From assembly GCA_003132405.1 (NCBI GenBank), contig PKXQ01000109.1:1-64000 (forward strand): DNA of 64,000 nt, given 5' to 3'. The notes beneath the pieces are model-generated. The model made no database searches. It worked only from the letters and a program-made list of their open reading frames with translations, and was not told the origin of the DNA. Shown here piece by piece: positions 27,214 to 62,918 of the stretch (position 1 is the first letter of the stretch; the number at the start of each line of letters is the position of its first letter). The position numbers and the translations under genes were made by a program. This DNA comes from Acidobacteriaceae bacterium. GTDB lineage: Bacteria; Acidobacteriota; Terriglobia; Terriglobales; Acidobacteriaceae.

Positions 27214-28580
27214 CCGAAGTGAGTACACAGGGAAGACTGCTGGTCGTAGATGACGAACTAAGCGTGCGCGATTCGCTGGACAAATGGTTTCGCGAGGAAG
27301 GCTATGAAGTCGGCACGGCGGAGAATGCCAACGACGCACTTACTCGTTTGGCGGAACATCGATGGGATGCCGCTCTCGTCGATATCAAGATGCACGGAAC
27401 CGACGGAATCGAGTTACAGCGCCGTATGCACGAAATCGATCCGGACTTAGTCGTGATTATGATGACCGGCTATGCCTCGGTCGAGACAGCGGTGACGGCT
27501 CTGAAAAATGGCGCCTATGACTATGTGACGAAGCCGCTCGACCCGGACGATATCGCGCATCTGATCAAGAACGCGCTGGCGCATAAACGCACGACGCAGG
27601 AAAATGTGCTGCTGCGCGAAACCGTCGCCGATATCGCTCGTCCAGGAGACATCGTTGGCCAGAGCGGTCTCATGCGCAAACTCTTCAACGCGATTGAGAC
27701 GGTTGGCCCAACCGACGCCACGGTCCTGATCACGGGCGAAAGCGGCACAGGAAAAGAGCTGGTGGCGCGTGCCATTCATCACGCCAGTCCGCGAAGATTC
27801 CATCCTCTGGTCGCAATCCACTGCGGTGCCTTGACCGAGACGCTTCTCGAAAGCGAACTCTTTGGCCACGAAAAAGGCGCGTTCACCGGCGCGCAATATC
27901 GCAAGAAAGGCAAATTCGAAATTGCCGAAGGTGGAACGGTTTTTCTCGATGAGATCGGCGACATTAGCTTAAAGACGCAGACCGACCTGCTGCGGGTTTT
28001 GCAGGAACGGGAAATCACTCGCGTCGGTGGCAATCAAAACATCAAGGTGGACTTCCGCTGCGTCGCCGCCACCAACAAAGATCTCGAGAAGCTGATCGAG
28101 GAAGGTAAGTTCCGCCCCGACCTTTTCTACCGGCTGAACGTGTTCCGCATTGAGCTGCCGCCGCTACGTGAGCGCCGCGAAGACATTCCCCTGCTGGTGG
28201 ACAATTTCGTTCGAAAGTTTTCCCTGGCGATGAATAAACGCATCACCCGCGTTTCACCGGCGGCAATGAATCAGTTGCAGCAGCAGTCCTGGGTTGGAAA
28301 TGTCCGTGAACTGGAGAATGCCGTCGAGCGCGCCATGGTTGTCGGGCACGAGCCGGAACTGCACGAACAGGATTTTATTTTCAAGTCACCAGCCATCTCC
28401 AACGGCGTGGGCAAGAAGCTCGAAGACATGGAGCGCGCGCATATACTGCGGGTGGTGGAGGAATGTGGAGGCAATCAGAGCCACGCCGCCGAGATCCTCG
28501 ACATCGACCGGGTCACGCTCTATCACAAGCTGAAAAAGTACGGTTGGTCGCGCACACCAGTCGAGGCACGATCCAACTAG
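27210..28580 (+). CDS. Sigma54-dependent NtrC-family response regulator
   Basis: REC domain, GESGTGKE Walker A, GAFTGA loop, C-terminal Fis-type HTH. Confidence 0.96.
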   Translation: MTEVSTQGRLLVVDDELSVRDSLDKWFREEGYEVGTAENANDALTRLAEHRWDAALVDIKMHGTDGIELQRRMHEIDPDLVVIMMTGYASVETAVTALKNGAYDYVTKPLDPDDIAHLIKNALAHKRTTQENVLLRETVADIARPGDIVGQSGLMRKLFNAIETVGPTDATVLITGESGTGKELVARAIHHASPRRFHPLVAIHCGALTETLLESELFGHEKGAFTGAQYRKKGKFEIAEGGTVFLDEIGDISLKTQTDLLRVLQEREITRVGGNQNIKVDFRCVAATNKDLEKLIEEGKFRPDLFYRLNVFRIELPPLRERREDIPLLVDNFVRKFSLAMNKRITRVSPAAMNQLQQQSWVGNVRELENAVERAMVVGHEPELHEQDFIFKSPAISNGVGKKLEDMERAHILRVVEECGGNQSHAAEILDIDRVTLYHKLKKYGWSRTPVEARSN

Positions 28581-28664
28581 TTCTCAGTTCCCAGTTCTCA
28601 GCTCTCACTTTTCGAGTAAACCGAGTAAACAACACTGAGAGCTGAGAGCCGGGAACCGAGAACC
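28577..28664. repeat. Stop-anchored 7-nt tandem hairpin A
   Basis: Units CTAGTTC TCAGTTC CCAGTTC TCAGCTC; right arm TGAGAGC TGAGAGC CGGGAAC CGAGAAC; 29-nt arms, 25/29 complementary. Confidence 0.9.
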
Positions 28665-28670
28665 GCCGCA

Positions 28671-29231
28671 ATGAAGCTGCTCCACCTGTTACCGATCGGG
28701 AATGTGGAGGACGAGCTGCTGCACGAGCTTCGTCCCGCTGTCGAAGAAACTTTTCACGTTTCCTGTCAGGTGCTACCGGCGCGATTGGATCCCGAATTCG
28801 CCTTCCACGGAGAGCGGCAGCAATACCACTCGTCGGAAATCCTGCATCGCATGCAGAGCTTTCTTACCGCGGACTCATGGCGCCTGCTTGGAGTCGTTGC
28901 CGTCGATCTTTACATCCCGATTCTCACCTTTGTTTTTGGCGAAGCGCAGATGGGAGGCCCCTGCGCGGTGGTTTCAGCGCACCGGTTGCGGCAGGAGTTC
29001 TACGGGCTTCCTCCTGATCGCGACCTGTTTCGCCAGCGTGTAATCAAGGAGTCGGTTCATGAAATCGGCCACACCCTGAGCTTGACTCACTGCGAGGATT
29101 ACAGCTGCGCCATGGCGCCGTCGCACGCTGTGGAGTGGATCGATCTCAAGCAAGGTTCGCTATGCACGACGTGCCGAGAAGCGGCAACGCCGATGACCAG
29201 GATTTCGTCGGCAAATCTTTTGAAATCGTAG
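28671..29231 (+). CDS. amzA: Archaemetzincin-family zinc metalloprotease
   Basis: HEIGHTLSLTHCEDYSCAM followed by CTTCR. Confidence 0.9.
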   Translation: MKLLHLLPIGNVEDELLHELRPAVEETFHVSCQVLPARLDPEFAFHGERQQYHSSEILHRMQSFLTADSWRLLGVVAVDLYIPILTFVFGEAQMGGPCAVVSAHRLRQEFYGLPPDRDLFRQRVIKESVHEIGHTLSLTHCEDYSCAMAPSHAVEWIDLKQGSLCTTCREAATPMTRISSANLLKS

Positions 29232-29386
29232 ACTGGGCTGGACTCGCCGACACTCTTGGTTTCGCTATCGCAAAAACATCGGCCGCCCGGCTCCTGGTTT
29301 TTAACCTTGGATCCGGACGGCCTGATGTTTCCAACGGTCCTCGTTACGGCGACCTGCGAGGTGGCTCGCTCTCGCGGAGCGTCACT

Positions 29387-30067
29387 CTAGGACAGGAAGA
29401 ATTCTTTCGCCAGCGGCAGCCACTCCTGGTCGGGAATGTGGGTGGATACGTCGTTGATGGCCACTCCACCGTCCTGGGCCAAGGCTCCGAGCGCTACTGG
29501 CATGCGGACGCGCAGGCGTCGGGCTGCTTCGTCCATCCAGGAGCGGGCGAGCCCGCCGCCTAACAGGTTCTTGAAACTGGTCTTGGCATCGGGCGCCTGC
29601 ACGGTTACGAGCCAGCCCTCGCCGTAAGGATCGTTGAGCGCCAGCTTTGGATCGCATTCAACCGCCGGGTTGATATCAGCTACCGTGCCCTCGATGGGCG
29701 AAACCATATCAACCTTGCAGCCGTCGCGATAGATGGTGAACATCTTTTGGCCTTGGCGAATCCATTGTCCGCGTTGCGGCAGCGTGATGTTCTCGAGTTT
29801 GCCGATCAGCTTGGTGGCAAAGTCGTCCATACCCACGCGCACCAGGCTGGGGCTCTCGGTCAATGCCCAAGTGTGACCTGGATGATAGCGCAGGTTTTCC
29901 GGCACGGCGAACCCGCCTACTAAGGCCGGCTGAAGACGGGGCGGAGCGTTACGTTCCGCCGCGGCGGCGCGTGTCATCGTAATCGGTTCGGCAATCGTGT
30001 TACGGGTGCGGAAGTAGTCGATTAGTAAGAAGGCTACGAACGTGAAGAGAACCAGTAGGACTGTCAT
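29387..30067 (-). CDS. Membrane-anchored GcvH-like lipoyl-domain protein
   Basis: N-terminal TM; HPGHTWALTESPSLVRVGMDDFATKLIGKLENITLPQRG, GCKVDMVSPIEGTVADIN. Confidence 0.85.
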   Translation of the reverse strand: MTVLLVLFTFVAFLLIDYFRTRNTIAEPITMTRAAAAERNAPPRLQPALVGGFAVPENLRYHPGHTWALTESPSLVRVGMDDFATKLIGKLENITLPQRGQWIRQGQKMFTIYRDGCKVDMVSPIEGTVADINPAVECDPKLALNDPYGEGWLVTVQAPDAKTSFKNLLGGGLARSWMDEAARRLRVRMPVALGALAQDGGVAINDVSTHIPDQEWLPLAKEFFLS

Positions 30068-30456
30068 AAGTCACCTCGTCGGAGGGCCGTCTAGCGAGCC
30101 ACTCAGCACTTTTCTTAAAGGCAATCGCCTCGCCATACCGAAACGTGTCGGGGACGAGCATCCTGCTGTCGCTTATCTGCCCTGAAATGACGAAGATGCG
30201 TGGAACGCGTTTTGTGGTGCGAGATTTCGACATGAAATTGTCAACAACGCTTTGATGCAGTTCGCAACGGTCAAAAAGGCCGCGTTCCAATATTTGAATT
30301 TGGCCGGCGCGAACGACGATTTGAAATCAGTTACTTGCGGGTGGGTGAATGCATCGTTGCATCTGACAACACCAAAGTCGAAGAATGCAACGGTGAAAAT
30401 CGGTCGTGAGATGGGCCGGTTGCAAAACAGCGTTCGCGGCCTGCAAACTACTAAAC

Positions 30457-31356
30457 GTGCCGGAACTGCCCGATATCGCAGCCTACATCAGCGCGCTTGA
30501 GCCGCGGATCGTTGCCCAGCCAATCGAGCACATACGCGTGTCGAGCCCTTTTCTGTTACGTACCGTGCAACCGTCCCTTAAAGATGTGGAAGGCCGCGTG
30601 GTGCGCGAGTTGCGGCGAATCGGCAAGCGCATTGCCATTGGCCTAGACGGCGATCTCTGGCTGGTGCTGCACTTGATGATCGCCGGGCGACTGCACTGGC
30701 GCCAGAGAGGAGCAAAACTGGCAGGTCGCCAGAGCCTGGCAGCTTTCGATTTTCCGAATGGCTCTCTCGTGCTCACGGAGGGCGGCACAAAGCATCGCGC
30801 ATCGCTCTATGTCCTCAGCGGCGAAGAGAGCTTGCAATCGGTCGACCCTGGTGGAATCGACGTCCTCAGTAGCAATTTCGAATCGTTTCGCGAAGCGCTG
30901 ACGGCTGAGAACCGCACGCTGAAAAGAGCGCTTACCGATCCGCGAATATTAAGCGGTATCGGCAATGCGTATTCGGACGAGATCTTGCACGCCGCCCAGT
31001 TGTCTCCTATCGCGCTAACGCAAAAGCTCAAACCCGATGAATGGGAAAGGTTATTCGCCGCGACTCGCGATACTCTGCGGCTGTGGATAGACCGTTTGCG
31101 CGCAGAAGCAAAGGCGGGCTTTCCCGAAAAAGTGACCGCCTTCCGCAAGGAGATGGCAGTTCACGGACATTACGGAGAACCTTGCCCGAGGTGTGGAGAA
31201 AAGATTCAGCGGATTCGCTACGCTGACAACGAAACCAACTATTGTGCTCGCTGCCAGACCGGCGGAAAAGTTTTGGCTGATCGAAGCTTGTCGCGGCTGT
31301 TGCGATCAGACTGGCCGCGTACACTGGACGAACTCGAAGCTCTTAAACGCCGCTAG
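30457..31356 (+). CDS. mutM: Formamidopyrimidine-DNA glycosylase / endonuclease VIII family
   Basis: GTG start, (M)PELPDIAAYISAL; C-terminal zinc finger CPRCGEKIQRIRYADNETNYCARCQ. Confidence 0.88.
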   Translation: MPELPDIAAYISALEPRIVAQPIEHIRVSSPFLLRTVQPSLKDVEGRVVRELRRIGKRIAIGLDGDLWLVLHLMIAGRLHWRQRGAKLAGRQSLAAFDFPNGSLVLTEGGTKHRASLYVLSGEESLQSVDPGGIDVLSSNFESFREALTAENRTLKRALTDPRILSGIGNAYSDEILHAAQLSPIALTQKLKPDEWERLFAATRDTLRLWIDRLRAEAKAGFPEKVTAFRKEMAVHGHYGEPCPRCGEKIQRIRYADNETNYCARCQTGGKVLADRSLSRLLRSDWPRTLDELEALKRR

Positions 31357-31446
31357 AATGTGAAACGCCGACAATTGGACACAAGCCACCTTCGAGACTC
31401 CAATAGCGCGATCCATGTGGAGATTGCCGGTCAGGAGTCGTGACGT

Positions 31447-32076: not shown

Positions 32077-32117
32077 GTTTGTACAATTCTAAGTCCACGC
32101 GCCTCGCGTTTCGATTC

Positions 32118-33020: not shown

Positions 33021-33062
33021 GGCTGCCTTCGTAACTCACTCCGCATTGCATCAAATTAATTA

Positions 33063-38284: not shown

Positions 38285-38764
38285 ATGGCTACCAAGAAGA
38301 AAGCTAGAAACAAGTCGACAACATCCAAGAAAAGCACCAGTAAGAAGTCGAAGCCGGTGCAAAAGAAGCCGACGCGGAAACGAACAACGCCTACGAAATC
38401 AGCGAAGCGAGTGGTCACTCCGAAAAGAGCCACAGCGAAAAACAAGGTCGTGCAGAAAACAGCTAGCCGGAAGATCGCCAGCGCGCGCAATAAGAAGACT
38501 CGGACCAAGAACCAGGAGCGGGAAGTGTTCGGCCTCCCGCGTGGTGTCTCACGCTCGGGCGAGGAAGCGGGAGATTTGCAGGGCTTATCGAACGTCGAGA
38601 GTGCTGATTCGGAAAGTGTCGACGAGTTGGTCGAGGAGGGAAACGCCTTTGAGGCTGGAGTGATATCGGGAGTCGAAGAGGCGGGAGACCGCGACGAGAA
38701 GGAAGTGCGCACCCGCGAGGTGCCCGAAGATGACATACCCGGCGAGTACCTCGATGAAGACTAA
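38285..38764 (+). CDS. Histone H1-like basic N-terminus fused to an acidic C-terminal domain
   Basis: MATKKKARNKSTTSKKSTSKKSKPVQKK... then VDELVEEGNAFEAGVISGVEEAGDRDEKEVRTREVPEDDIPGEYLDED. Confidence 0.8.
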   Translation: MATKKKARNKSTTSKKSTSKKSKPVQKKPTRKRTTPTKSAKRVVTPKRATAKNKVVQKTASRKIASARNKKTRTKNQEREVFGLPRGVSRSGEEAGDLQGLSNVESADSESVDELVEEGNAFEAGVISGVEEAGDRDEKEVRTREVPEDDIPGEYLDED

Positions 38765-38808
38765 CAAAGACGAAGATTAACGGGACGAAGATTAAAGACG
38801 AAGACTGA
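38753..38808. repeat. Stop-anchored iteration of GAYGAAGAYTRA
   Basis: GATGAAGACTAA (true stop) 38753, GACGAAGATTAA 38769 and 38784, GACGAAGACTGA 38797. Confidence 0.8.
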
Positions 38809-39898: not shown

Positions 39899-40366
39899 AT
39901 GAAAAAAGTTAATTACATTCCAGAAGGCTACAACACGATTACTCCATACCTGGTCATCAAGGGTGCCGCGAAAGCTATCGACTACTATAAGAAAGTCTTT
40001 GGCGCTACGGTAGTCGTGCGCATGGACGGTCCCGACGGCAAGGTGGGCCACGCCGAACTGCAGATCGGCGACTCGCGCATTATGCTGGCCGACGAAAATC
40101 CCGCCATGGGCAACCGCAGCGCCGAGAACATTGGCGGCTCTCCGGTGAGCCTGTACGTCTACCTGCCCGACTGCGACGCGGTCGTCGCAAAGGCCACTGC
40201 CGAGGGGGCCAAAATTTTGAAGCCGGTGCAGGATCAGTTCTATGGAGATCGCTCTGGCTTCATCCAGGATCCGTTCGGGCATCTCTGGGGCGTCGCAACT
40301 CACAAGGAAGATGTGTCGCCCAAAGAAATGAGCGAACGCGCCAAGAAAGCGATGCAGGCAGCCTGA
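39899..40366 (+). CDS. VOC-family (PhnB-like) protein
   Basis: ITPYLVIKGAAKAIDYYKKVFGATVVVRMDGPDGKVGHAELQIGDS. Confidence 0.9.
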   Translation: MKKVNYIPEGYNTITPYLVIKGAAKAIDYYKKVFGATVVVRMDGPDGKVGHAELQIGDSRIMLADENPAMGNRSAENIGGSPVSLYVYLPDCDAVVAKATAEGAKILKPVQDQFYGDRSGFIQDPFGHLWGVATHKEDVSPKEMSERAKKAMQAA

Positions 40367-40371: not shown

Positions 40372-40465
40372 GCTCTTGGCTTTTGGCTCCTAGCTCCTGG
40401 CTTGATGCCCTTGGCTTGATCGGCGATCGGGCTTGGCTAAAGGCTAAGAGCTAACGGCCAAGGCC
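40372..40465. repeat. Stop-adjacent 7-nt tandem hairpin B
   Basis: GCTCTTG GCTTTTG GCTCCTA GCTCCTG GCTTGAT GCCCTTG GCTTGAT ... GCTTGGC TAAAGGC TAAGAGC TAACGGC CAAGGCC, in strict 7-nt phase. Confidence 0.9.
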
Positions 40466-40528
40466 ACGCTGTTTCACGCGCCGTCGATCTCGTACAATTG
40501 AAGAGATAACTTAGAAAGGACTCTCCCT

Positions 40529-40996: not shown

Positions 40997-41015
40997 GTCC
41001 CGCAAAAGAAGCTTC

Positions 41016-41092
41016 AACCACGAAGGCCACAAAAATTCACGAAGGTTTCAGTCTCAGCTTTTCCTTCGTGAACCTTTGTGGCCTTCGTGGTT
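41016..41092. repeat. Long inverted repeat between convergent genes (hairpin C)
   Basis: AACCACGAAGGCCACAAAAATTCACGAAGG / CCTTCGTGAACCTTTGTGGCCTTCGTGGTT; 30-nt arms, 28/30 complementary. Confidence 0.92.
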
Positions 41093-41147
41093 AACGATTC
41101 CGCGAAGGCCGCCACAAGACGCAAGCGGCATTGATACTTCGGAGCGC

Positions 41148-43527: not shown

Positions 43528-44586
43528 CTATTGCTGCGGCGGCTGAGAAGGCGTTTGCGGAGCTGGCGATTGCGGACTCTGCCCGCCTAATCCTTGGCTG
43601 CCTCCTGGTCCAAAGGAACTTTGTCCAAATCCGCCTTGTCCCGGCATTCCACCGGGCATTCCTGGCATTCCAGGAGTGACTGCGCCTGGAATTCCGGAAG
43701 TCACGCCACCCGTAGGATTTACCGGCCCATTCAACAAGCCGCCGCGGTCAGCCATAGGCAGGTAAATAAAGAGCCAGTCGTTGTAATGGTTCTTGGTGTA
43801 GAAGACGTGAATGCTTTTCTCTTTGCTCGTGCTGGCAACGCCGAGAATCGGCCCGCCTCCAAACGTCTGCCCACCCAGGTTGGAACTGGAGATGGAATTC
43901 GACGACGGCGATCCAGATGAAGACGACCCATTTGAATTCGCGTCGGGGTTGCCGGAAGAAGAGCTGTCTGACGCGCCGCCCGCCGACGCATTCGCGGAAT
44001 TGCCGCCTGCGGAATTTTGATTGCCCGGCTGTTGCAGTCCACCCGGTTGCGCTCCGAAGCCGCCAATGCTGGCAACGCCGCCCTGCCCTCCGCCAAATGC
44101 TCCGGCACCGCCAAATCCGCTTTGTCCGGGCGCGCCTCCGCCCATCAGGCTCGAGGCTCCGCCTTGCAGATTCGTCCCCGGGGTTTGTCCGAGGACCATT
44201 CCATTGTTCAGGCTGATGTCCTGCTGATGCAGAAATTTAAAGTCTTTTTCCTTGCGCGTGGTCTTGTCGATATTCACGGGATCGGTATAACGCTTGCGCA
44301 GGAAGCGCAGGTTGTTGGTGCTCTCCAGCTCTTCAACCCGCGTCGGATAGCGCCCGAATTTCTTGTAGAAATGTTGAATGGCGCGCATGTAAGCCGTGCC
44401 CCGATGCCGCAACTCATCTTCGCGATCGCGGACAATCTGCTGTTTGATCTCCGGCAGCACGGCCAGCAAACCAATGGTGATCAGCGCCAGCGCCAGCATC
44501 AGCGTGATCATCACGTAGCCGCGCTGCTGGATTTGTGATTTGCGATTTGTAATTTGTAATCTGGGAGGTCTCAAGCTAAAACGCTG
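43528..44586 (-). CDS. GspG-like pseudopilin with long Gly/Ser/Pro/Gln low-complexity tail; start uncertain
   Basis: QQRGYVMITLMLALALITIGLLAVLPEIKQQIVRDREDELRHRGTAYMRAIQHFYKKFGRYPTRVEEL, then GMPGMPGGMPGQGGFGQSSF. Confidence 0.75.
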   Translation of the reverse strand, partial: QRFSLRPPRLQITNRKSQIQQRGYVMITLMLALALITIGLLAVLPEIKQQIVRDREDELRHRGTAYMRAIQHFYKKFGRYPTRVEELESTNNLRFLRKRYTDPVNIDKTTRKEKDFKFLHQQDISLNNGMVLGQTPGTNLQGGASSLMGGGAPGQSGFGGAGAFGGGQGGVASIGGFGAQPGGLQQPGNQNSAGGNSANASAGGASDSSSSGNPDANSNGSSSSGSPSSNSISSSNLGGQTFGGGPILGVASTSKEKSIHVFYTKNHYNDWLFIYLPMADRGGLLNGPVNPTGGVTSGIPGAVTPGMPGMPGGMPGQGGFGQSSFGPGGSQGLGGQSPQSPAPQTPSQPPQQ

Positions 44587-44642
44587 CATAACGCTCACTC
44601 GCCTTCGAAATCACGAATTACAAATCGCCAATTGCAAATCGC
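44530..44642. repeat. Stop-adjacent 7-nt tandem hairpin D
   Basis: GATTTGT GATTTGC GATTTGT AATTTGT AATCTGG; right arm reverse complement GATTTGC AATTGGC GATTTGT AATTCGT GATTTCG. Confidence 0.88.
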
Positions 44643-46343: not shown

Positions 46344-46379
46344 TAGTTAGGAAATCCCAAAAATTCAAAATGCTTTTAA

Positions 46380-46430
46380 GCTCTTAGCCTTTGGCCTTTA
46401 GCTAAAGTCAAGCGCCAAGAGCTAATAGCC
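46380..46430. repeat. Stop-adjacent 7-nt tandem hairpin E
   Basis: GCTCTTA GCCTTTG GCCTTTA GCTAAAG TCAAGC GCCAAGA GCTAATA GCC. Confidence 0.85.
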
Positions 46431-46434
46431 GTAC

Positions 46435-47437: not shown

Positions 47438-49120
47438 TCAACGCATGGTCTCAATAAAGGTGACCTTGTTGATCTCTTTCAGAGTGGTAAATCCCCCGCG
47501 CACCTTGTCAAGCGCCGATTCGCGCAGGAAGCGCATCCCTTCTTCGCGGGCGGCCTTCCGGATCTCCGACGTCGACTTGCGATCGAGAATCATTTCGCGA
47601 ATACGGTCGGTCAAATCCAGAAGCTCATGAATCGCCGTTCGCCCCCGGAATCCCGTGCCCGCGCACTCGATGCAGCCCTGCCCCTCGTACAAAGGAACCT
47701 GCGACCACACTTGCGGGTCCAGACCGCTCGCCTCCAGCACGTCGTTCGGATAATGCACCGCGGTGCGGCAAGAATCGCAAATGATGCGCACCAGCCGCTG
47801 CGCCAGAATGCAGTTCAGCGCCGAGACAAAGTTGTACGGCTCGACTCCCATGTTCAAAAAGCGTCCCAGCACGTCGACCACGTTATTGGCGTGGACGGTC
47901 GTAAACACGAGGTGGCCGGTCAGCGCCGATTGGATGGCGATCTGCGCCGTTTCGTTGTCGCGAATTTCGCCCACCATGATCTTGTCCGGATCGTGGCGCA
48001 AAATGGAACGCAGGCCGCGGGCGAAGGTCAGTCCCTTTTTTTCGTTGACCGGAATCTGGGTGATGCCGCGCAGTTGATACTCGACCGGATCTTCAATGGT
48101 GATGATCTTGTCTTCGTCGGTCTTGATCTCGTTGACGGCCGCATAGAGCGTTGTAGTTTTACCGCTGCCCGTCGGCCCCGTCACCAGCACCATGCCATAC
48201 GGTTCCTTGATGTAGCGGCGAAAGCGGCGCAGGTCGTCTTCCGCGAAGCCGACGACGTCGAGCGTGAGTTTCTTGAACTTTTCGCTCATCGACTCTTTAT
48301 CGAGTACGCGAAGCACCGCGTCTTCGCCGTGAATCGACGGCATGATGGAGACGCGGAAGTCGATGGCGCGCCCGTTGTACTTCACGCGGAAGCGGCCGTC
48401 CTGCGGCACGCGGCGCTCGGAAATGTCGAGCTCGCTCATCACCTTGATGCGCGAAATGATGGTCGAGTGGTGCTCTTTGCCGATGGGCGGCATGGCGTTG
48501 GTGAGCACGCCGTCGATGCGAAACTTGATGCCCACCGAGTCGTCCCGCGTCTCGATGTGAATGTCGCTTGCCCGCCGCTGCAACGCTGTAAAAATCGTAG
48601 TGTCGACTAGGCGGATGATAGGGCTCATGTCCGCCCCCGCCGTCGCCGTCAACTTGTCGATGGAGATGGTCTCGTCGTTCCCGGCTTCGTCCTCGCGAAT
48701 CACGTCGAGCGTGAATCCCTCGCTCGCGTCTTCCAGCACGCGCTTGGACTGTTCGGTCTTCTGCAGAATGTCGGAGATCTGCTTGTCGGTGGAAACTTTG
48801 GTGACGATGCGCTTGCCGAGCAGCAGGCTGATCTCGTCGATCATCATGAGCTGGCTCGGATTCGCAATCGCAATCACCAGCCGCCCGTCTTCGGTTTCGT
48901 TCAGAGGCACGAATTTATAGCGGAACATCAAGTGCACGGGGATCTTCTCGAACAGATCGTGGTGCAACTGGAAATCGCTCAGATCGATGAATTCGCAGCG
49001 GTAGCGCCGCGCAATATCGCGCGCATGCACCAGTTCGTCGGTCACTGGCGCCACTTCCGGCACCAGCTTCCCGCCATTTGCGCCGCTTACCACTGCTGTC
49101 TTCTTATCCGCCATTGCCAT
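47438..49120 (-). CDS. pilB: Type IV pilus assembly / type II secretion ATPase PilB/GspE
   Basis: GPTGSGKTTTLYAAVNEI, RSILRHDPDKIMVGEIRDNETAQIAIQSALTGHLV, tetracysteine zinc motif. Confidence 0.95.
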   Translation of the reverse strand: MAMADKKTAVVSGANGGKLVPEVAPVTDELVHARDIARRYRCEFIDLSDFQLHHDLFEKIPVHLMFRYKFVPLNETEDGRLVIAIANPSQLMMIDEISLLLGKRIVTKVSTDKQISDILQKTEQSKRVLEDASEGFTLDVIREDEAGNDETISIDKLTATAGADMSPIIRLVDTTIFTALQRRASDIHIETRDDSVGIKFRIDGVLTNAMPPIGKEHHSTIISRIKVMSELDISERRVPQDGRFRVKYNGRAIDFRVSIMPSIHGEDAVLRVLDKESMSEKFKKLTLDVVGFAEDDLRRFRRYIKEPYGMVLVTGPTGSGKTTTLYAAVNEIKTDEDKIITIEDPVEYQLRGITQIPVNEKKGLTFARGLRSILRHDPDKIMVGEIRDNETAQIAIQSALTGHLVFTTVHANNVVDVLGRFLNMGVEPYNFVSALNCILAQRLVRIICDSCRTAVHYPNDVLEASGLDPQVWSQVPLYEGQGCIECAGTGFRGRTAIHELLDLTDRIREMILDRKSTSEIRKAAREEGMRFLRESALDKVRGGFTTLKEINKVTFIETMR

Positions 49121-49145: not shown

Positions 49146-49245
49146 AGGTTTCAAGGTTTCAGAGTTTCAAGGTTTCAAAGTTGCTGAGCTGCAAATTCGA
49201 TTAGGCCGTAGCTTTTGTCTTTGAAACCTTGAAACTCTGAAACCT
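49146..49245. repeat. Stop-adjacent 8-nt tandem hairpin F
   Basis: AGGTTTCA AGGTTTCA GAGTTTCA AGGTTTCA; 26-nt perfect inverted repeat 49154-49179 / 49220-49245. Confidence 0.93.
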
Positions 49246-49249: not shown

Positions 49250-50461
49250 CTAATGCACATTCGCCCCCAGCGTGAATATCGGCATATAAAGCGAAATCAA
49301 TATCCCGCCCACAAATACCGCCATGATGATTAGAATCAACGGCTCAATCAACGCCATCGCCGCGCCCAGCGCGGTCTGCACGTCCTCTTCGTAGAACTCA
49401 GCCACCGATGCCAGCATCGCCGGCAGAGCGCCCGTCGATTCGCCTACCTCCAGCATCTCCACCGCCAGATCGGGGAAGAGCTTCTGCGTCTCCAGCGCGT
49501 GCGCCAGGCTCTGACCTTCTTTCACCCGCTCCGCCGCGGCGTTGACTCCATTCAACATCTGTCGGCTGCTCAACGATTCGGCCGCCGTTTCCATAGCCGG
49601 TACTAAAGGCAGTCCCCCCTGAAGTAGCGTGCCCAAAATGCGCGAGAAATTCGCCACCTGATACTTCAGCCGAATTTCACCAATCAGCGGCAGACCCAGC
49701 AGAAAATGATCGATGCGTTCGGCGCCTTTGTCGCTCTGCTTCCAGCGCCACAGGAGGATGCCGCCCACGATCAAGACCAATGCTACGATCCACCCATATT
49801 TCTGCGCATTCAGGCCGATCGTCAGCATGAACACCGTGATCGCCGGCAAGTCCGCGCCCAGATTGTTGAACAGGTCGGCAAACTTCGGAACCACGAAGGT
49901 GATCAGAAAAACCAGCATCACCGTCACCATCGTAATCAGCAGCGCCGGATACACCAGAGATACCAGAAGCTTCTTGCGGAAAGTCTGCACCATCCGCTGA
50001 TAGGTGATGTAGCGGCTGAGCACCTCTTCCATGTTGCCGCTCTTTTCGCCCGCCAGCAGTGTGGTCGTATACATCTTCGGAAACACCTGCTGCGCGGCGA
50101 ACGCATCCGACAGCAACTCGCCGCCCTTGACCCGCTCGCGGACATTTTCCAGCAGCCGCAGCAGTGATTTGTCCCGCTGCCGCTTGATCAACAAATCCAG
50201 CGCCGTCAGGATTGGCAGACCGGCCTTGATCAATGTCAGAAACTGCTGGTTAAAAATCAGGAATGTCGATTGCCGCAGCCTTCCGCTGCGCTGCCCAAAC
50301 TGCCCTCCGCGAGCGCTTAGCAGCGTCCGCGGCTTGACCCAATACACAAGGTAGCCCTGCTGGGCGAAGCGGTCGTGCACCTCCGCCTCCGAATAGCCGT
50401 GCTCCACCTGCTGCCGCAGATGGCCCTGTTCGTCGGCGACTTTGATCAGGAATTCTGCCAT
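49250..50461 (-). CDS. pilC: Type IV pilus inner membrane platform PilC/GspF
   Basis: GspF domains, FLIFNQQFLTLIKAGLPILTALDLL. Confidence 0.94.
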   Translation of the reverse strand: MAEFLIKVADEQGHLRQQVEHGYSEAEVHDRFAQQGYLVYWVKPRTLLSARGGQFGQRSGRLRQSTFLIFNQQFLTLIKAGLPILTALDLLIKRQRDKSLLRLLENVRERVKGGELLSDAFAAQQVFPKMYTTTLLAGEKSGNMEEVLSRYITYQRMVQTFRKKLLVSLVYPALLITMVTVMLVFLITFVVPKFADLFNNLGADLPAITVFMLTIGLNAQKYGWIVALVLIVGGILLWRWKQSDKGAERIDHFLLGLPLIGEIRLKYQVANFSRILGTLLQGGLPLVPAMETAAESLSSRQMLNGVNAAAERVKEGQSLAHALETQKLFPDLAVEMLEVGESTGALPAMLASVAEFYEEDVQTALGAAMALIEPLILIIMAVFVGGILISLYMPIFTLGANVH

Positions 50462-51378: not shown

Positions 51379-52019
51379 GAAAAGATGGAATACTGCTCCG
51401 TACCACCGACTTTCTTAAGGGCTGTGCGCTCAGCGATAAGCTGCTCAAGGAGCGGATTATGATAGAGCACATACACCGCACGTGGATTCTCCGCTAGACT
51501 CTTTTCCAGGTTAGCAATCAGCCGTTTCATCCCCGCCTCCGGCAACGGATTAAATAGATAGACCACGAGCGGCCCATCAGGAAAAGCGAACTCGCAAGCA
51601 TCCGCGCACACCGCCTCAATCTGCAAGCAGCGCTGCGTCGCCGATTTGTAGGCGCGTATGTTCTCCTCCGCCGCGCGATGTAGCTCCGCAATCAACTCCA
51701 CTCCTAAAATTCTTCGAAACGGATATTCCGACGCCATCAGCAGCGTTCGCCCTTTACCGGACCCAATATCGACGAACGTGAATTGATCGAAGGCGATCGG
51801 CAGGCTCGCCATCATCTCGCGAAACAGCCCAGGCTCTGTCGGTTGATACGGAGAATGAAAAGCTCCCAGCAGCCGCGCCCGCCAGCCCACCGTGCCGCTC
51901 GTGGTATTGACGCGATGCTCCCAGTCGAACTCCATGTCGCCATAGCGCTGCCGTCGCCGCGATGGCGTAGAGTCGCGAAGAAAATTCCAGAGATTGCGAA
52001 ACAGGGTAGTACTTAGCAT
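51366..52019 (-). CDS. Class I SAM-dependent methyltransferase
   Basis: FTFVDIGSGKGRTLLMASEYPFRRILGVELI. Confidence 0.85.
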   Translation of the reverse strand: MLSTTLFRNLWNFLRDSTPSRRRQRYGDMEFDWEHRVNTTSGTVGWRARLLGAFHSPYQPTEPGLFREMMASLPIAFDQFTFVDIGSGKGRTLLMASEYPFRRILGVELIAELHRAAEENIRAYKSATQRCLQIEAVCADACEFAFPDGPLVVYLFNPLPEAGMKRLIANLEKSLAENPRAVYVLYHNPLLEQLIAERTALKKVGGTEQYSIFSWSS

Positions 52020-52097
52020 TTAGCCGTTAGCACTTGTGAAACCGCGATAAGCAATATTTTTGATGCACTACGCTAAATGCTAAATGCTAACCGCTAA
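52013..52097. repeat. Stop-anchored 7-nt tandem hairpin G
   Basis: TTAGCAT TTAGCCG TTAGCAC and reverse complement arm TTAGCGG TTAGCAT TTAGCAT TTAGC. Confidence 0.92.
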
Positions 52098-53029
52098 CTG
52101 CCGCTCTTCTCCCGCGGGGGCTGCGGAGGCGACGCTCCGGGTGGAAGGCCCTTCGTGATGAAGTATAGGATCTTCGGATTCTGTACTTCGATCCGCCCAT
52201 CGGACATCAACTGGTAAGCGTTGCCCTTTGGATCGGCAGGCGTTCCATGAATGAATCCCGCTCGCTCCAGATCGCCCATGTTCTCCGGCAGTCGTCCTGT
52301 CTGTTGGCGATAGCGTTCGACGACATGCTCTAACTGCTTCACCTCCTCATCAACCTGCAGAGCGAGCAAATGTTCGACTGCGTTCTGCCGTATGCGCGGT
52401 TCCTTGGTGCTCTGATAGGTGGTGACCCACAACATGCGCGCCGTGTCGAACTCGCCGGCGTGCTGCGCCATTCGTGCCGCCAGAATCGGCATGAATTCGT
52501 TGGTCACTGGCAGCGCCGCACCTTGCTTAAATACCTCCGCCGCCTTGGCATAGTCCTTGAACTCGGTGTAATAGAGGAACCCGAGGTTGTAGTAGAGCCG
52601 CCACTGATCGGGGTTATGTTCGATGCCGTATTTCATGAGCGAAAGCGCCGCGCCCGGCAAACCCGCGCCGCTCGGCGGTTTCGGCGCTAGAAAGTTGGCT
52701 CCAAACTCGTAGGCGGGCAAAAGCTTCGGATCCAGCTCAGTCGTCACTTCGAGCAGCGGAGCCAGCAGGCGGAAATCGCCGGAGCCGCTATGATGCTGGA
52801 CGCCGAAATACTGCACTGCGCGCGTCCAATAAATATCGGCCAGCAGGCCGGTGTAGCCGAGGCTCATCCGCCGCAGCACTCTTGGAGAGCTGATATAAAG
52901 CTCGTCCTGCGCCACCGGTTCCCGCCGCGTGCGGTCCATGGCATAGAGAGTCGTCATGGCGCCCGCCAAAGAAAAGAAAAGCACCGCCAGCGCCGCCAGA
53001 TTGACGCGCCCCGTTGCACTCATTTTCAT
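52094..53029 (-). CDS. Tetratricopeptide-repeat membrane protein
   Basis: TM at N-terminus; YYNLGFLYYTEFKDYAKAAEVFKQGAALP. Confidence 0.75.
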   Translation of the reverse strand: MKMSATGRVNLAALAVLFFSLAGAMTTLYAMDRTRREPVAQDELYISSPRVLRRMSLGYTGLLADIYWTRAVQYFGVQHHSGSGDFRLLAPLLEVTTELDPKLLPAYEFGANFLAPKPPSGAGLPGAALSLMKYGIEHNPDQWRLYYNLGFLYYTEFKDYAKAAEVFKQGAALPVTNEFMPILAARMAQHAGEFDTARMLWVTTYQSTKEPRIRQNAVEHLLALQVDEEVKQLEHVVERYRQQTGRLPENMGDLERAGFIHGTPADPKGNAYQLMSDGRIEVQNPKILYFITKGLPPGASPPQPPREKSGS

Positions 53030-55815: not shown

Positions 55816-55869
55816 TGTGGCCACCCTGGAATGTCCTCTGGCAAATTGCTTACCCAGAGACATCAGATC

Positions 55870-56010: not shown

Positions 56011-56025
56011 CCACTGATGCGGAGC

Positions 56026-56803: not shown

Positions 56804-56843
56804 AGGCTTGTACCCTCCCCCAGGTACTTTGCCAAATTCAAGC

Positions 56844-57690: not shown

Positions 57691-59607
57691 TCATTTGCTG
57701 GAGAGTAGCGACTCCGCTTCTTTCTGCGCTCCGGGGAGATCCGGCGACGAGCGCGCGACGCGCTCGTAAATTGCCTTCGCGTCAGCGAGAAGGCCCTCCC
57801 GCTGCAAGGCCTGCGCTAATAGCAAGGACGCGACGTCACCCGGTTGCGTTGCCACGGCGCGCGAATACCAGCGAACCGCCGCTGCCAGGTCGCCACTATC
57901 CTGCGCAACCAGGCCGAGACCGATCATCGCCCTGGTCCGCTCCGGAGCCAACGTCAGAGCTGTTTCGAAACACTGCTTGGCTTTCATCGACTGTCCCATT
58001 TGGCGATAAACAAATCCGAGACTTCCATAGGCGGTTGCGCGCATACCGACGTCGCCCGCGTGATTAATTACCATCTGATAATGGTCAATGGCTGCAGGCA
58101 AATTGCCGCGACGGTCCTCGTACGCGCCCAGATTCAGATTGGCAATCATGCCCTGCGGACGAATCGCCAGCGCGGCGCGGAAATGGTTGGCAGCTTCATC
58201 GGATCTTCCCTGGTTAAACAAGAACTCGCCCAAATTAGCCTCAGCGACATAGTTGTCATGAGTGAGCGCCAAAGTGCGCAGCCAGAACGACTGCGTATCG
58301 TGCCAGTAGCCAACTTGCCGGTAGGTGAGCGTGCCGAGCGTGAGCAGACAAGCAACCGCTGGGACGGCAAGCCATTTGGGCGAAATTTTGCGAGCATCGG
58401 CCCATTCACCCGCGAGCCAGATCGACATAAGAAACAGGCCTATGAACGGGAGGTAAGCGTAGCGATCGGCCATCGCCTGGAGTCCGACCTGTACGAGCCC
58501 GATCATGGGTACCAGTGTGCCCAGAAACCAGAGCCATCCGACAGCAAGATACCGCTGCTTCCGGCAACGGAGCGCCCAAGCGGTGACGAGAATCAACAAA
58601 ACCACTGCCGCGCCCGCTTGCCACGCAGGATAAAGCTTGTCAGGGTGAGGATAGAGCCCCACTAATTTCGCTGGCCAGAAAGCCTTCCCGATGTAGCGAA
58701 CATACGAAATCGCGGCGGTTTCCAGCCGCAGGAGGAAACTATACTCAGAAAGATTCTTGACGGCGCCTCCCGCCTTCTGAGCCTTCATCGTAACCACGGC
58801 GCTTGCTGCCGAGAGCAAAAGCAGGGGCAACTTTTCGAGCAGCAGCCATGCACTCCGCCATCCAAAAAGGTCTTGCCCCCGCTCCGCGAAAGAATCCGAA
58901 CCACCCACACGGCCGAGCGGCCAGTAATCCCACAGCAAAAGCACAAACGGAAATGTGATCACCTGGGGCTTGCTGAGCAGTGCCAGTGCGAAGCAAACTG
59001 CCACCGTTGCGTATCGGCCAAGCCCCGGTCGCCGCGCATACCAGCCGTAGGCATACAAGGCGAGCAGAAAAAACATCATGCTCAATACATTCTTCCGCTC
59101 CGCTATCCAGGCCACGGACTCGACATTGATCGGATGCAGCGCAAAAAGAGCAGCGACCATCAGGCTGCGCCAGCGAAATCCCGTGGCGCTCTGGAGCAAT
59201 AGAAAGAGAAGCACTGCATTGACCGCGTGCAGCAGGACATTCATGTAGTGATGACCCGCCGGTTTCAGGCCGAAAAGTTCGCAGTCAAGGGCATGGGAAA
59301 GCCAGGTCAGCGGATGCCAGTTCGCCACTTCATAGGTGGTAAACGCCCATTTCACCGTGGTCCAGGTGACGCCCGCTCTTACATGCAGGTTGTCGGCGAT
59401 GTATCTGTCGTCGTCATATCTGAGGAACCCATTGTTCGTCACCGGGTTATAGGAAATAAGCACGGCCACGGTCAGCAGCAGGCAAAACAGCAGCGTGCGG
59501 CTCCTCGGCGACTGAAACGGCCTGGAGGAACTCGAGAATCGAGGTTCTTCCAGACGTTTCATGGCTGCGGCAGAAGAGGACGAACTCATGGATTCAACTA
59601 TTCTCAA
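57691..59607 (-). CDS. Multi-TM glycosyltransferase-like protein with C-terminal TPRs (copy 1)
   Basis: FLRYDDDRYIADNLHVRAGVTWTTVKWAFTTYEVANWHPLTWLSHALDCELFGLKPAGHHYMN; TPR C-terminus. Confidence 0.85.
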   Translation of the reverse strand: MRIVESMSSSSSAAAMKRLEEPRFSSSSRPFQSPRSRTLLFCLLLTVAVLISYNPVTNNGFLRYDDDRYIADNLHVRAGVTWTTVKWAFTTYEVANWHPLTWLSHALDCELFGLKPAGHHYMNVLLHAVNAVLLFLLLQSATGFRWRSLMVAALFALHPINVESVAWIAERKNVLSMMFFLLALYAYGWYARRPGLGRYATVAVCFALALLSKPQVITFPFVLLLWDYWPLGRVGGSDSFAERGQDLFGWRSAWLLLEKLPLLLLSAASAVVTMKAQKAGGAVKNLSEYSFLLRLETAAISYVRYIGKAFWPAKLVGLYPHPDKLYPAWQAGAAVVLLILVTAWALRCRKQRYLAVGWLWFLGTLVPMIGLVQVGLQAMADRYAYLPFIGLFLMSIWLAGEWADARKISPKWLAVPAVACLLTLGTLTYRQVGYWHDTQSFWLRTLALTHDNYVAEANLGEFLFNQGRSDEAANHFRAALAIRPQGMIANLNLGAYEDRRGNLPAAIDHYQMVINHAGDVGMRATAYGSLGFVYRQMGQSMKAKQCFETALTLAPERTRAMIGLGLVAQDSGDLAAAVRWYSRAVATQPGDVASLLLAQALQREGLLADAKAIYERVARSSPDLPGAQKEAESLLSSK

Positions 59608-59721
59608 CTAGACACGAACGTCGGCGGAAAGGAACTGCGAAGAATAAGTACCCTTGGTAACTGCGGAGAGTTCACGCAAGCGTTTCTCCGCTGCGGTAAA
59701 ATGGCCCCTCGCCGGAGAGCC

Positions 59722-60816
59722 ATGCCAAACCTGCAACTCAACACCGATCGCGACATCGCCCGCGCTTCTACCCTTCCCGCGCCTCTCTATTTCACTCCGG
59801 CAGCTTTTGAGCGGGAAAAAGCCACCATCTTCGCCTCAACCTGGCAAGTTGTCGGCCATGTTCACCAGGCCGCAAATCCCGGCGACTACTTTACCTTCGA
59901 CCTCGTCGGGGAGCCGCTTCTCATCGTCCGTGGCGACGACGGAGTCCTTCGCGGCTTCTATAACGTCTGCCGCCATCGCGCCGGCAATCCTGCCACCGGC
60001 TGCGGCAATCGCAAGCTCTTCCGCTGTGGCTACCACGGCTGGACTTACCGCCTCGACGGCGCACTGCTGGTCACCCCGGAATTTGACGGCGTTGAGGATT
60101 TCGATCCCGCAGACTTTGGCCTCGCTCCTGTGCGTCTCGAAGAGTGGTTCAACCTCATCTTCGTCAATCTCGATCCCGAGGCGCGCCCTTTACGCGAATC
60201 GCTCGGCGAACTGCCCGTCCAGGCCGAGAAGTTCGATTTCCGCAACATGAAGTTCTCCGAGCGCCGTACCTACGAGATGAACTGCAACTGGAAAACTTAT
60301 ATCGACAATTATCTCGAGGGCTATCACGTACCGAGCGTTCATCCGGCGCTCAATCGCGAAATCAACTACGGCGGCTACGTAGTCGAGCCTTACCCGCAGT
60401 ACGTTCGCCAGTGGACTCCAATCCGCGGCGCTCAGCCCGGCGACGCGACTCCTCGGCGGTACGAATCGGGCCAGCATTCGGGCAAAGACCTCACCGCCGA
60501 CTATTTCTGGATCTTCCCCAACTGGATGCTCAACTGTTATCCCGATAATGTCTCGTTGAACATCATCCTGCCGCTTGCCCTCGAGCGCACCCTGGCCATC
60601 TTCGAATGGTATCTGCCCGAGCAGGATCTAGGCGGCGAAGCGGCAGCCAAAGCTTTAGCCTTCAGCGACGAGATACAGGTAGAAGACGTCAGCATCTGCG
60701 AGATCGTGCAGAAAAACCTCCACTCCCGCAGCTATCTCAGCGGCCGCTACAGTGTGAAGCAGGAAAAAGGCGTCCACGCCTTCCACCAGATGTATCGCGA
60801 ACTGATGCCCGGATAA
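59722..60816 (+). CDS. Rieske [2Fe-2S] ring-hydroxylating oxygenase alpha subunit family
   Basis: CRHRAGNPATGCGNRKLFRCGYHGW Rieske motif; NYLEGYHVPSVHP mononuclear iron ligands. Confidence 0.92.
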   Translation: MPNLQLNTDRDIARASTLPAPLYFTPAAFEREKATIFASTWQVVGHVHQAANPGDYFTFDLVGEPLLIVRGDDGVLRGFYNVCRHRAGNPATGCGNRKLFRCGYHGWTYRLDGALLVTPEFDGVEDFDPADFGLAPVRLEEWFNLIFVNLDPEARPLRESLGELPVQAEKFDFRNMKFSERRTYEMNCNWKTYIDNYLEGYHVPSVHPALNREINYGGYVVEPYPQYVRQWTPIRGAQPGDATPRRYESGQHSGKDLTADYFWIFPNWMLNCYPDNVSLNIILPLALERTLAIFEWYLPEQDLGGEAAAKALAFSDEIQVEDVSICEIVQKNLHSRSYLSGRYSVKQEKGVHAFHQMYRELMPG

Positions 60817-60844
60817 CCCGCACTCTACCCGGATAACCCGCACT
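60808..60844. repeat. Tandem duplication spanning the Rieske stop codon
   Basis: CCCGGATAACCCGCACT at 60808-60824 and 60828-60844 (20-nt period, 17 nt identical). Confidence 0.9.
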
Positions 60845-60965
60845 TTAGGAGATGTTACTTCGGATTGGCGGCGGCTTTCTCAGAACGATCGCAGGGAATC
60901 CAATTTCGCTAAAATTGTCCTAGGGCGGTGCGCCGTTTTAGACCGCGTCTCGACTGCTCTACGAC

Positions 60966-62882
60966 ATGCCAGCCTCCGTAGAAAAGCGCGTAGTCATCTT
61001 CTGCCTGCTGCTGGTAGCAGCCACGCTCGCTTTTTACAATCCCATCGTTCATAACGGATTCATCGAATTCGATGATTCTGCCTATATTGTGAAGAATCCT
61101 CAGGTTCAGAGCGGCCTGACGTGGAATACCATTAAGTGGTCGTTCACAACCTTTCACGTCGCAAACTGGCATCCGATGACATGGTTGTCGCACGCCGCGG
61201 ATTGCCAGATGTTTGGACTCAATCCGGTTGGACACCACTACATCAACCTCCTGTTGCACGCCGCCGACGCAGTGCTGCTCTTTTTATTGTTGTGGCGGGC
61301 GACCGGGCTCACATGGCCGAGCCTGATCGTAAGCGCGTTGTTCGCGCTCCATCCCATCAACGTCGAATCAGTAGCCTGGGTAGCCGAGCGCAAGAATGTC
61401 CTGAGCATGACGTTCTTCCTGCTTGCTCTGCACGCCTATGACCTCTATGCGCGCACCGGCAAACGATCTCTCTACGCGTGGGTCGCGATTTTATTTGCCG
61501 TGGGATTGATGGCCAAGCCGCAGATCGTCACTCTGCCCTTTGTGCTCCTGCTCTGGGATTACTGGCCGCTCCAGCGCCTTGCTGTATCGCATATAAGCGG
61601 ATCGCAAGCGCACGCGGAATCAGCCGTCGCTACCGGTTCGTCCGCATCGCCTGCCGCACGTTCGCTCAGCTTTCTAGTCTGGGAGAAATGGCCGCTCTTC
61701 ATGCTCGCTGCGGCAGATTCGGTCATCACGGTGATCGCGCAGCGCGCTGGCTCCGCAGTTCGCACGGCGGCGGAAGTATCCATACCCGCGCGCATCGACA
61801 ATGTCTTCGTTTCCTATGTGCGCTATCTGGGGAAAATGTTTTGGCCCTCCCATCTCGCTCCGATGTATCCGCATCCCGGGAATTCGCTGCCGCCAGTTGA
61901 GGTAATGGGCGCCCTGTCTCTACTGCTTTTGATTTCCGCGCTCGTATGCCACTGGCGTGATCGCCGCTATTTGCTGGTTGGCTGGCTGTGGTTTCTGGGA
62001 ACGTTAGTCCCCATGATCGGAATCGTCACCGTCGGCGAGCAAGCCATGGCCGACCGCTTTGCCTACATTCCATTCATCGGTTTGTTCATCGCTGTGGTTT
62101 GGACTGTGAATGACTGGGCGACAAACACTCAGGCACAAAGCGCGCAAACCTCGCATCCTCGCACCAGCCCGGCGTGGCTCGCCGCTGCCGCCGTCGTTAT
62201 TTGCTCTCTAGGATTTCTCACTTACCACCAACTTAGCTACTGGCGCGACGACGAAACTCTCTGGCGCTACACCTTGAGCGTCACCGAGCGTAATTACATG
62301 GCGCACGACAATCTCGCCCTCGCTCTCGCCAAGCAGGGACGATCCGATGAAGCCGTGGTCGAATTCCGCGCGGCGAACGCGCTGCATAAGTATCCGCCTG
62401 CTCAGGTCGTCGCCCTGGCTTTATATGAAGAGCGCGTCGGTCATGCCCAGGAAGCGATCGAAGAATCCAATTCAGTGCTGCGCGCGTCCGCCAACAATAA
62501 CGACTCCAGGCTTCAATCCGCTGCCTGGAGCGCGCTCGGCCAAGCCCACCTGCAACTGCGCCAATACGACGAAGCCGCCGAGAGCTACGAGAATGCCCTG
62601 CGCCTGCGCCCGGAAAATGAAATGGCGCTAATCGGTTCTAGTTTGGTAGCGCTCAGTCAGGAAAAATCCAACGAAGCAGTCGCCAATTTGGCACACGCGG
62701 TAAAAATTGATCCGAGCGACGTGAACTTTCTCTTGCTAGCGCAAGCTCTGCGCCAAGCCGGCCGTCAAGACGATGCTGAGCAGGCGACCAACGAAGCCCG
62801 CAAAATCTCCCCTAACTTAAGCCAGGCGCAAAGCGCAGCCGGGCAGCTGCTTTCCGTCGCCGAGCTGACGAACCGCAACTGA
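60966..62882 (+). CDS. Multi-TM glycosyltransferase-like protein with C-terminal TPRs (copy 2)
   Basis: FIEFDDSAYIVKNPQVQSGLTWNTIKWSFTTFHVANWHPMTWLSHAADCQMFGLNPVGHHYIN; TPR C-terminus. Confidence 0.85.
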   Translation: MPASVEKRVVIFCLLLVAATLAFYNPIVHNGFIEFDDSAYIVKNPQVQSGLTWNTIKWSFTTFHVANWHPMTWLSHAADCQMFGLNPVGHHYINLLLHAADAVLLFLLLWRATGLTWPSLIVSALFALHPINVESVAWVAERKNVLSMTFFLLALHAYDLYARTGKRSLYAWVAILFAVGLMAKPQIVTLPFVLLLWDYWPLQRLAVSHISGSQAHAESAVATGSSASPAARSLSFLVWEKWPLFMLAAADSVITVIAQRAGSAVRTAAEVSIPARIDNVFVSYVRYLGKMFWPSHLAPMYPHPGNSLPPVEVMGALSLLLLISALVCHWRDRRYLLVGWLWFLGTLVPMIGIVTVGEQAMADRFAYIPFIGLFIAVVWTVNDWATNTQAQSAQTSHPRTSPAWLAAAAVVICSLGFLTYHQLSYWRDDETLWRYTLSVTERNYMAHDNLALALAKQGRSDEAVVEFRAANALHKYPPAQVVALALYEERVGHAQEAIEESNSVLRASANNNDSRLQSAAWSALGQAHLQLRQYDEAAESYENALRLRPENEMALIGSSLVALSQEKSNEAVANLAHAVKIDPSDVNFLLLAQALRQAGRQDDAEQATNEARKISPNLSQAQSAAGQLLSVAELTNRN

Positions 62883-62918
62883 AAACTGATAACTGAAAAC
62901 TGATAACTGACAACTGAG
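62877..62918. repeat. Stop-anchored 7-nt tandem array H
   Basis: AACTGAA AACTGAT AACTGAA AACTGAT AACTGAC AACTGAG; TGA every 7 nt, the first being the true stop. Confidence 0.95.

Follow-up and report, generated by a model that had tools for sequence, protein, structure and literature searches.

Hairpins built from 7- and 8-nt words at gene ends and in rRNA-operon spacers of an Acidobacteriaceae bacterium

RESULTS

Word arrays in the intergenic gaps of the window

We analyzed a 64,000-nt stretch of DNA (hereafter, the window) from an Acidobacteriaceae bacterium (GenBank assembly GCA_003132405.1, contig PKXQ01000109.1, positions 1 to 64,000 of the forward strand), in which an initial annotation had pointed to at least seven intergenic gaps holding tandem words of 7 nt (in one case 8 nt), each array starting within about 0 to 5 nt of the stop codon of the upstream gene or including it. 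Here, we describe these arrays, most of which are arms of hairpins (Table 1), and their occurrence in the host genome and its relatives. The host, a soil bacterium, belongs to the Terriglobales (Acidobacteriota), with Candidatus Sulfotelmatobacter-like metagenome-assembled genomes as its nearest named relatives.

Arrays were detected by comparing base i with base i + p (match, +1; mismatch, −2) in the window, the host genome, its relatives, and shuffled DNA. At a score of ≥12, the window contained five segments at lag 7 (28579, 28635, 44530, 52072, and 62877) and one at lag 8 (49146), compared with a dinucleotide-shuffle expectation of about 0.05 segments per lag. The tandem arrays reported at 28.6, 44.5, 49.1, 52.0, and 62.9 kb were thus recovered, but the one at 40372 scored only 9, and the hairpin at 46380, which is composed of TTAGC-type words, fell under the tandem-array threshold of 8. 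The first 28 kb, described as array-free, indeed contained no lag-7 or lag-8 segment scoring ≥12. A search with the covariance models of Rfam 15 returned nothing above the gathering score in the window.

The hairpin at 28579 overlaps the stop codon of the upstream gene (27210–28580, sigma-54 response regulator), and the array at 40372 begins 5 nt past the stop at 40366, although its partner arm was not significant in a strict test (p = 0.14). At 44.5, 46.4, 49.1, and 52.0 kb, the genes lie on the (−) strand, and the left edge that had been taken to adjoin a stop codon adjoins a start codon instead; it is the other arm that lies at the upstream stop, about 4 to 6 nt past it at 44.5 kb (~4 nt, with the 3′ arm preceding the next start) and 49.1 kb, and extending into it at 52.0 kb, where the hairpin also runs over a possible start codon of g51366. 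The arms of the 49.1-kb octamer hairpin match perfectly over 26 bp (fold z-score, −7.0), and its 37-nt array (49146–49182) has an identical copy at C119:75097, on another contig of the host. The array at 62.9 kb contains the TGA stop of the gene at 60966–62882 (TPR protein) and belongs to the set as an array but not as a hairpin, since neither a complementary arm nor a stable fold was found; orthologs of its upstream gene at two congener loci (L031 and L034; only plus-strand loci were used) carry no array past the stop.

Table 1. Word arrays and hairpins in the window
Feature	Position	Strand	Arms and context
AGTTCTC/CAGCTCT-word hairpin	28579..28664	+	5′ arm 28579–28607, 3′ arm ~28635–28664; fold z-score −7.4
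TTGGCTC/CTAGCTC words	40372..40466	+	5′ arm 40372–40402, complementary words ~40430–40466
GATTTGT-word hairpin	44530..44642	−	Gap g44645->g43528; 5′ arm (sense) 44642–44608, 3′ arm 44560–44530
TTAGCTC/TTGGCGC-word hairpin	46374..46432	−	Gap g46435->g45765; paired
Octamer GGTTTCAA hairpin	49146..49245	−	Between pilC-like 49250–50461 and pilB-like 47438–49120
TTAGCAT-word hairpin	52013..52101	−	Gap g52094->g51366
Solo array, ~six AACTGAN words	62877..62917	+	Convergent gap

Two further loci that had been grouped with these arrays proved to be of a different kind. Positions 38753–38806 hold imperfect ~15-nt copies of the GACGAAGATTAA word at the end of the gene at 38411–38764, and positions 60808–60847 hold a 20-nt tandem duplication across the stop of the gene at 59722–60816, which is not a heptamer array.

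The arrays are specific to periods of 7 and 8 nt

Statistics for the host genome, a draft assembly of 158 contigs that is 88.8% complete, refer to 764 to 841 kb sampled from 5.72 Mb (~15%); the same array features were seen in independently assembled genomes. Genes were called with a simple codon-usage caller, of which the stops are trustworthy and the starts less so. All of the evidence is DNA sequence.

In 764 kb of the host genome, lag 7 yielded 28 segments and lag 8 yielded 4 (score ≥11), all of them intergenic and none genic, compared with 0 to 0.1 segments when the intergenic DNA was shuffled. Between genes, periods of 7 and 8 nt and multiples thereof prevailed; lags 4, 5, and 11 gave zero segments in the same 764 kb, while those at lags 6, 9, 12, and 15 were mainly genic, as expected of codon-length repeats. 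Among 80 named Terriglobia loci chosen regardless of arrays, 27 lag-7 segments were intergenic and 5 genic. Because lags 7 and 8 exceed the shuffles in intergenic DNA and the other lags gave either nothing or mainly genic segments, the observation is real and applies specifically to periods of 7 and 8 nt: the arrays exist well above chance and are patterned.

Hairpin architecture and word families

The typical unit consists of a word array (W) and a reverse-complement array (W′), separated by a loop whose length ranges from a few nucleotides to about 50 nt. Of the 29 co-directional gaps with arrays, 18 contained a significant partner arm and 2 a self-palindromic array, while 9 arrays were solo. 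The folding z-score had a median of −2.5 in 38 array gaps (16 under −3), compared with −0.4 in array-free gaps (10/120 under −3).

We found at least seven vocabularies in the host genome, namely, CAGTTCT, TTAGCTC, GTCGTTG, GATTTGT, AGGTCAG..TTGCAG, CAGGTGAC..AGGAAAA, and the octamer GGTTTCAA. Certain arms reappear almost unchanged at unrelated loci (e.g., AGGTCAGATTGCAGAGGT, CAGGTGAC..AGGAAAA, and GGTTTCAA). Across 28 hairpins, pairing was better between the two arms of one hairpin than between same-vocabulary arms from different loci (permutation p = 5e-5); in the AGGTCAG family, own and foreign arms paired equally well, as expected of recent copies. Further dispersed hairpin families (GTCATCCTGAGCGAAGCGAAGGACC, ACCACGAAGGCCACAAAGG, and CCTCAGCGGCTAAAGCCG..CAGCGGTAAACCGCTG) also occupy gaps of the host genome, e.g., C134:45712–45853, C67:40997–41147 (window 40997–41147), and C25:116057–116210.

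Only 1 of 20 hairpins had at least five T residues in the following 8 nt, which excludes intrinsic (Rho-independent) terminators; a hairpin followed by a U-tract was scarce in the gaps of the host genome overall (1/22 and 4/136). Near-start arrays were all A+C-rich, and near-stop arrays were mostly G+T-rich. Since either strand of such a hairpin presents as W-loop-W′, this bias is a matter of geometry in hairpins, and we rejected it as a sign of transcription-linked polarity; it is informative only in the few solo arrays.

Position relative to stop codons and tRNA genes

Arrays were present in 40 of 455 gaps in 841 kb of the host genome, i.e., in 29/318 co-directional, 8/57 convergent, and, rarely, in divergent gaps (3/80). 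In the co-directional gaps, 19 of 20 hairpins began no more than 13 nt past the upstream stop (12.2 expected when hairpins are placed at random within their own gaps; p = 2e-4, the lowest value that the test can return), so the stop proximity first noticed in the window holds for whole hairpins across the sampled genome. In G170, which belongs to the same family but to another genus and whose contigs reach 2.4 Mb, 29 lag-7 arrays were present, all intergenic, and 14 of 15 hairpins began within 20 nt of a stop (8.5 expected, p = 4e-4), with three convergent gaps occupied by hairpins from stop to stop. The G170 stretches were picked for YAGYT-type matches, which biases array density there but not placement.

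The initial annotation had also stressed stops in all three frames. On the sense strand, this is true of 11/29 arrays, but another 11/29 have a stop in no frame; on average, 1.48 frames per array contained a stop, compared with 1.09 in permuted words, and the main word of the GTCGTTG family lacks any stop.

Contig C119 of the host begins with the end of an rRNA operon, in which ARAGORN called tRNA-Ala and tRNA-Ile. Heptamer hairpins lie in the 16S/tRNA-Ile spacer (z-score, −5.2), the tRNA-Ile/tRNA-Ala spacer (z-score, −5.3), and likewise the tRNA-Ala/23S spacer. The hairpins are not bound to translation stops, and "stop-codon anchored" is too narrow a description, because the same hairpins occupy tRNA-flanking spacers. 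Within C119:1–1300 (L016:1–1300), every tRNA-flanking part of the 16S-23S spacer has a heptamer hairpin; in the rRNA operon of a congener, the tRNA-tRNA spacer is short (about 20 nt) and holds no heptamer hairpin.

Turnover between related species and spread across the phylum

Sixteen genomes of the same genus are syntenic across the pil operon. The pilC-pilB gap (49.1 kb in the window) holds the octamer hairpin in the host, G006, G009, and G002, a CAGTTGC heptamer hairpin in G004, and a GTAGAGACG..CGTCTCTAC-type palindrome in G003, G029, G022, and G008, and it is short (15–54 nt) in several other congeners. In a FastTree phylogeny with midpoint rooting, the octamer is common to one clade plus G002. 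The same gap measures 15 nt in G010 versus 184 nt, including the heptamer hairpin, in its sister G004, where a 22- to 23-nt unit carrying a new start codon is also duplicated (L263). The 46.4-kb gap measures 1–8 nt in four species and 74–105 nt in most others, in which it is usually filled with a hairpin from one of three vocabularies (TTAGC, TTCGC, and CAGCTCT). Cross-species covariation of the arms was weak at 44.5 and 49.1 kb and clearer at 46.4 kb. A GTAGAGACGSGGC..GCCSCGTCTCTAC hairpin family often takes the same after-stop spot in congeners (pil operon gaps L090, L091, L097, and L104).

Between the sisters G004 and G010, whose proteins have a median identity of 91%, synteny extends to 59 gaps; arrays occupy 7 of these in G004 and 3 in G010. 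Only two of eight array gaps are common to both, one of them with 7-nt words in one species and 8-nt words in the other. At orthologous gaps, hairpins have thus been gained, lost, or swapped among sister species.

Across 247 genomes of the phylum, a fixed pattern of three consecutive YAGYT words matched 0 to 810 times per genome, with counts differing strongly within one family and within one genus; some lineages were rich instead in reversed-control matches, meaning other vocabularies. The distribution of arrays across the phylum is, therefore, very patchy. The 810 matches belong to a distant relative, G203, which is an extreme outlier (locus L236 contains two of its arrays). By contrast, the first 120 kb of G272, a relative assembled as a single contig, were free of arrays, so G170 rather than G272 served as the check in a more contiguous genome.

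DISCUSSION

Origin and function of the hairpins

We consider it fairly likely that the arrays represent several families of small, non-autonomous, dispersed hairpins, similar to repetitive extragenic palindromic (REP) elements, that turn over fast and are confined by selection to dispensable transcribed spacer. Copies would arise through dispersal of short hairpin elements and would be lengthened or shortened by slippage and fold-back copying within the stem, which would explain why both arms share a vocabulary. Purifying selection would purge hairpins from genes, promoters, and ribosome-binding regions, such that the survivors would start at the first dispensable base, directly past the stop codon or past the 3′ end of a tRNA; pre-start leaders and the promoters of divergent gaps, unlike that base, would be needed sequence. 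Stop proximity would thus be explained without any stop-seeking process. Once transcribed, the hairpins would resemble E. coli REPs in forming 3′ or intercistronic RNA hairpins that block 3′ exonucleases, and those within about 15 nt of a stop could affect ribosome release. By this analogy, the hairpins probably serve as 3′ mRNA structures; this function would be a by-product that certain loci have put to use and would not be why the hairpins exist. One reading put forward in the initial annotation, a 3′-end mRNA hairpin, agrees with the stable folds and their position within 13 nt of the stop in 19 of 20 cases.

Several observations weigh against this explanation. No mobilizing enzyme, transposase, or target duplication was identified, the transposases sought being those of the Y1 type, and about a third of the arrays (9/29) are solo, with no hairpin. 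In the G004 pilC-pilB gap (L263), the arms flank the old pilB 5′ leader, which now lies in the loop, so that a single simple insertion cannot explain this locus. In the 44.5-kb gap, species-swapped arms pair nearly as well as own arms (−33.2 versus −36.6 kcal/mol), which makes base-by-base co-evolution weak there.

Part of the evidence would also fit functional 3′-end devices maintained by selection, which, following Rho termination, would set or shield the 3′ ends of mRNAs, or which would insulate neighboring cistrons, the exact word being unimportant. The strong folds directly past stops, the better pairing of own than of swapped arms, and the substitution of one hairpin family for another at a single site are in line with this proposal, and given how rare hairpins with a U-tract are in this genome, those lacking one could mark trimmed ends. 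However, many orthologous gaps hold no hairpin, solo arrays occur, and a role in termination sits poorly with hairpins inside an rRNA-operon spacer and inside the pil operon; we regard selection for such devices as a rather unlikely origin. Slippage or template switching may occur at gene ends, but it is improbable that the arrays are pure mutational scars of these processes, made anew in each gap with no dispersal. The mirror-perfect arms at 49.1 kb, unit errors included, the shift from 7 to 8 nt at one orthologous site, and the solo arrays would all fit local copying, yet unrelated loci share long arms (e.g., AGGTCAGATTGCAGAGGT, CAGGTGAC..AGGAAAA, and GGTTTCAA), and this needs copying between loci.

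The initial annotation had further suggested multi-frame stop cassettes, whose role would be to halt ribosomes that have read through a stop or shifted frame. The arrays with stops in all three frames and the excess over permuted words gave this idea some appeal, but equally many arrays are stop-free, as is the main GTCGTTG word, and others adjoin tRNA genes in the rRNA operon. The rRNA-spacer hairpins together with the 11/29 arrays lacking any sense-frame stop remove this explanation, which is largely refuted and which we hold to be very improbable.

Whatever their origin, these elements link heptamer repeats, known from separate reports on various bacteria, to REP-like 3′ hairpins. They also offer a tractable system, in which close genomes differ in whether one and the same operon gap is empty or holds 7-nt words, 8-nt words, or another hairpin. 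The differing states of the same gap make it directly testable why 7-nt units are favored and whether the hairpins are junk or 3′-end regulators. A note of caution concerns the rRNA spacers of these bacteria, which contain such inserts; hairpins in the 16S-23S spacer may lengthen the spacers relied on in typing.

Comparison with known repeat systems

Short tandemly repeated repetitive (STRR) sequences of cyanobacteria are tandem, degenerate 7-nt units that are mainly intergenic, a description that also fits the arrays reported here. Agreement with the named words of such repeats is mixed: AACTGAN matches a rotation of TAACTGA-like words and GATTTGT fits TDNGATT, while the remaining words differ. 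A close structural parallel is the P6b stem-loop of the Nostoc tRNA-Leu(UAA) group I intron, which is made of Class I (TDNGATT) or Class II (NNTGAGT) heptanucleotides (Kaasalainen et al. 2015, PMC4476775). As in our hairpins, imperfect 7-nt words on one side of the stem face complementary words on the other, and the word class switches at the same site among related strains; GATTTGT fits Class I when rotated. That stem belongs to one intron locus in cyanobacteria, while the Acidobacteriota hairpins are found at many loci, both past genes and in rRNA spacers, and draw on seven or more vocabularies per genome.

The initial annotation knew of no repeat class tied to stop codons, but GGGAATC/GGGGA(T/C)T heptamers of Xanthomonas and Nostoc lie mostly 0–50 bp from, or overlap, a stop codon and show coding-strand polarity (Rehm et al. 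2015, PMC4692102). As here, their length and sequence differ among relatives, with no tie to mobile elements; they differ in consisting of one G-rich, quadruplex-forming word and in not being organized mainly as hairpin arms. Direct repeats of TAACTGA occur in Beggiatoaceae, Cyanobacteria, and Bacteroidetes (MacGregor 2015, PMC4679880). The AACTGAN array at 62.9 kb uses nearly the same word, and both are intergenic heptamers of which some overlap upstream stops; however, the TAACTGA repeats involve one word and no hairpin and, in the main genome studied, lie mostly just 5′ of starts.

Similarities extend to REPs, bacterial interspersed mosaic elements (BIMEs), and GTAG/CGTC palindromes, which are likewise dispersed extragenic hairpins near stops, some of them providing the stop, and for which roles in 3′ mRNA stability and translation have been proposed (PMC3733652, PMC12306157). 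GTAG palindromes supply stop codons, and Acidobacteria have related tyrosine transposases (Di Nocera et al. 2013, PMC3733652); according to work summarized in RepRanger 2025 (PMC12306157), translation is reduced by REPs that lie less than 16 nt from a stop, and REP structures block exonucleases. Our elements are, like REPs, short, multicopy extragenic stem-loop palindromes (stable folds; 40/455 gaps), but whereas the REP palindrome is conserved and often comes with a REP-associated tyrosine transposase (RAYT) as partner, the stems here are word arrays of many vocabularies. No single consensus unites them, as arm similarity is confined within each of at least seven word families, and no RAYT link was found. 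A palindrome of another kind, not a heptamer-type array, flanks the host RAYT gene at C119:3749, and among 12 Y1_Tnp loci of relatives, such arrays lie near few, about the background level; with no association seen at these loci, we rejected RAYT-driven REPs. One RAYT-linked REP consensus for all loci was not found. As for miniature inverted-repeat transposable elements, no clean insertion with target duplication was readable in the compared gaps at the available species divergence, and Y1 transposases were the only parents sought.

A bolder proposal would unite STRRs, the trnL P6b stem, TAACTGA and GGGAATC repeats, and the present elements in one class: a dedicated copying process, common to distant phyla, would write paired W...W′ arms of 7/8 nt at the borders of transcribed spacers, with W after gene ends and W′ before starts (separate arms, as in the G004 pilC-pilB gap, included), swapping the word while keeping the hairpin. 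We judge this to be improbable. In the open-access literature, to which our search was confined, we found no report of such repeats in Acidobacteriota spacers. The elements add to earlier, scattered accounts of heptamer repeats and of hairpins resembling REPs and are not wholly new: stop proximity (Xanthomonas and Nostoc heptamers) and stems of complementary heptamers with word switching (Nostoc trnL intron) were already published, while the Acidobacteriota hosts, the many vocabularies per genome, the genome-wide hairpin architecture, the insertion into rRNA operons, and the site-by-site turnover are new.

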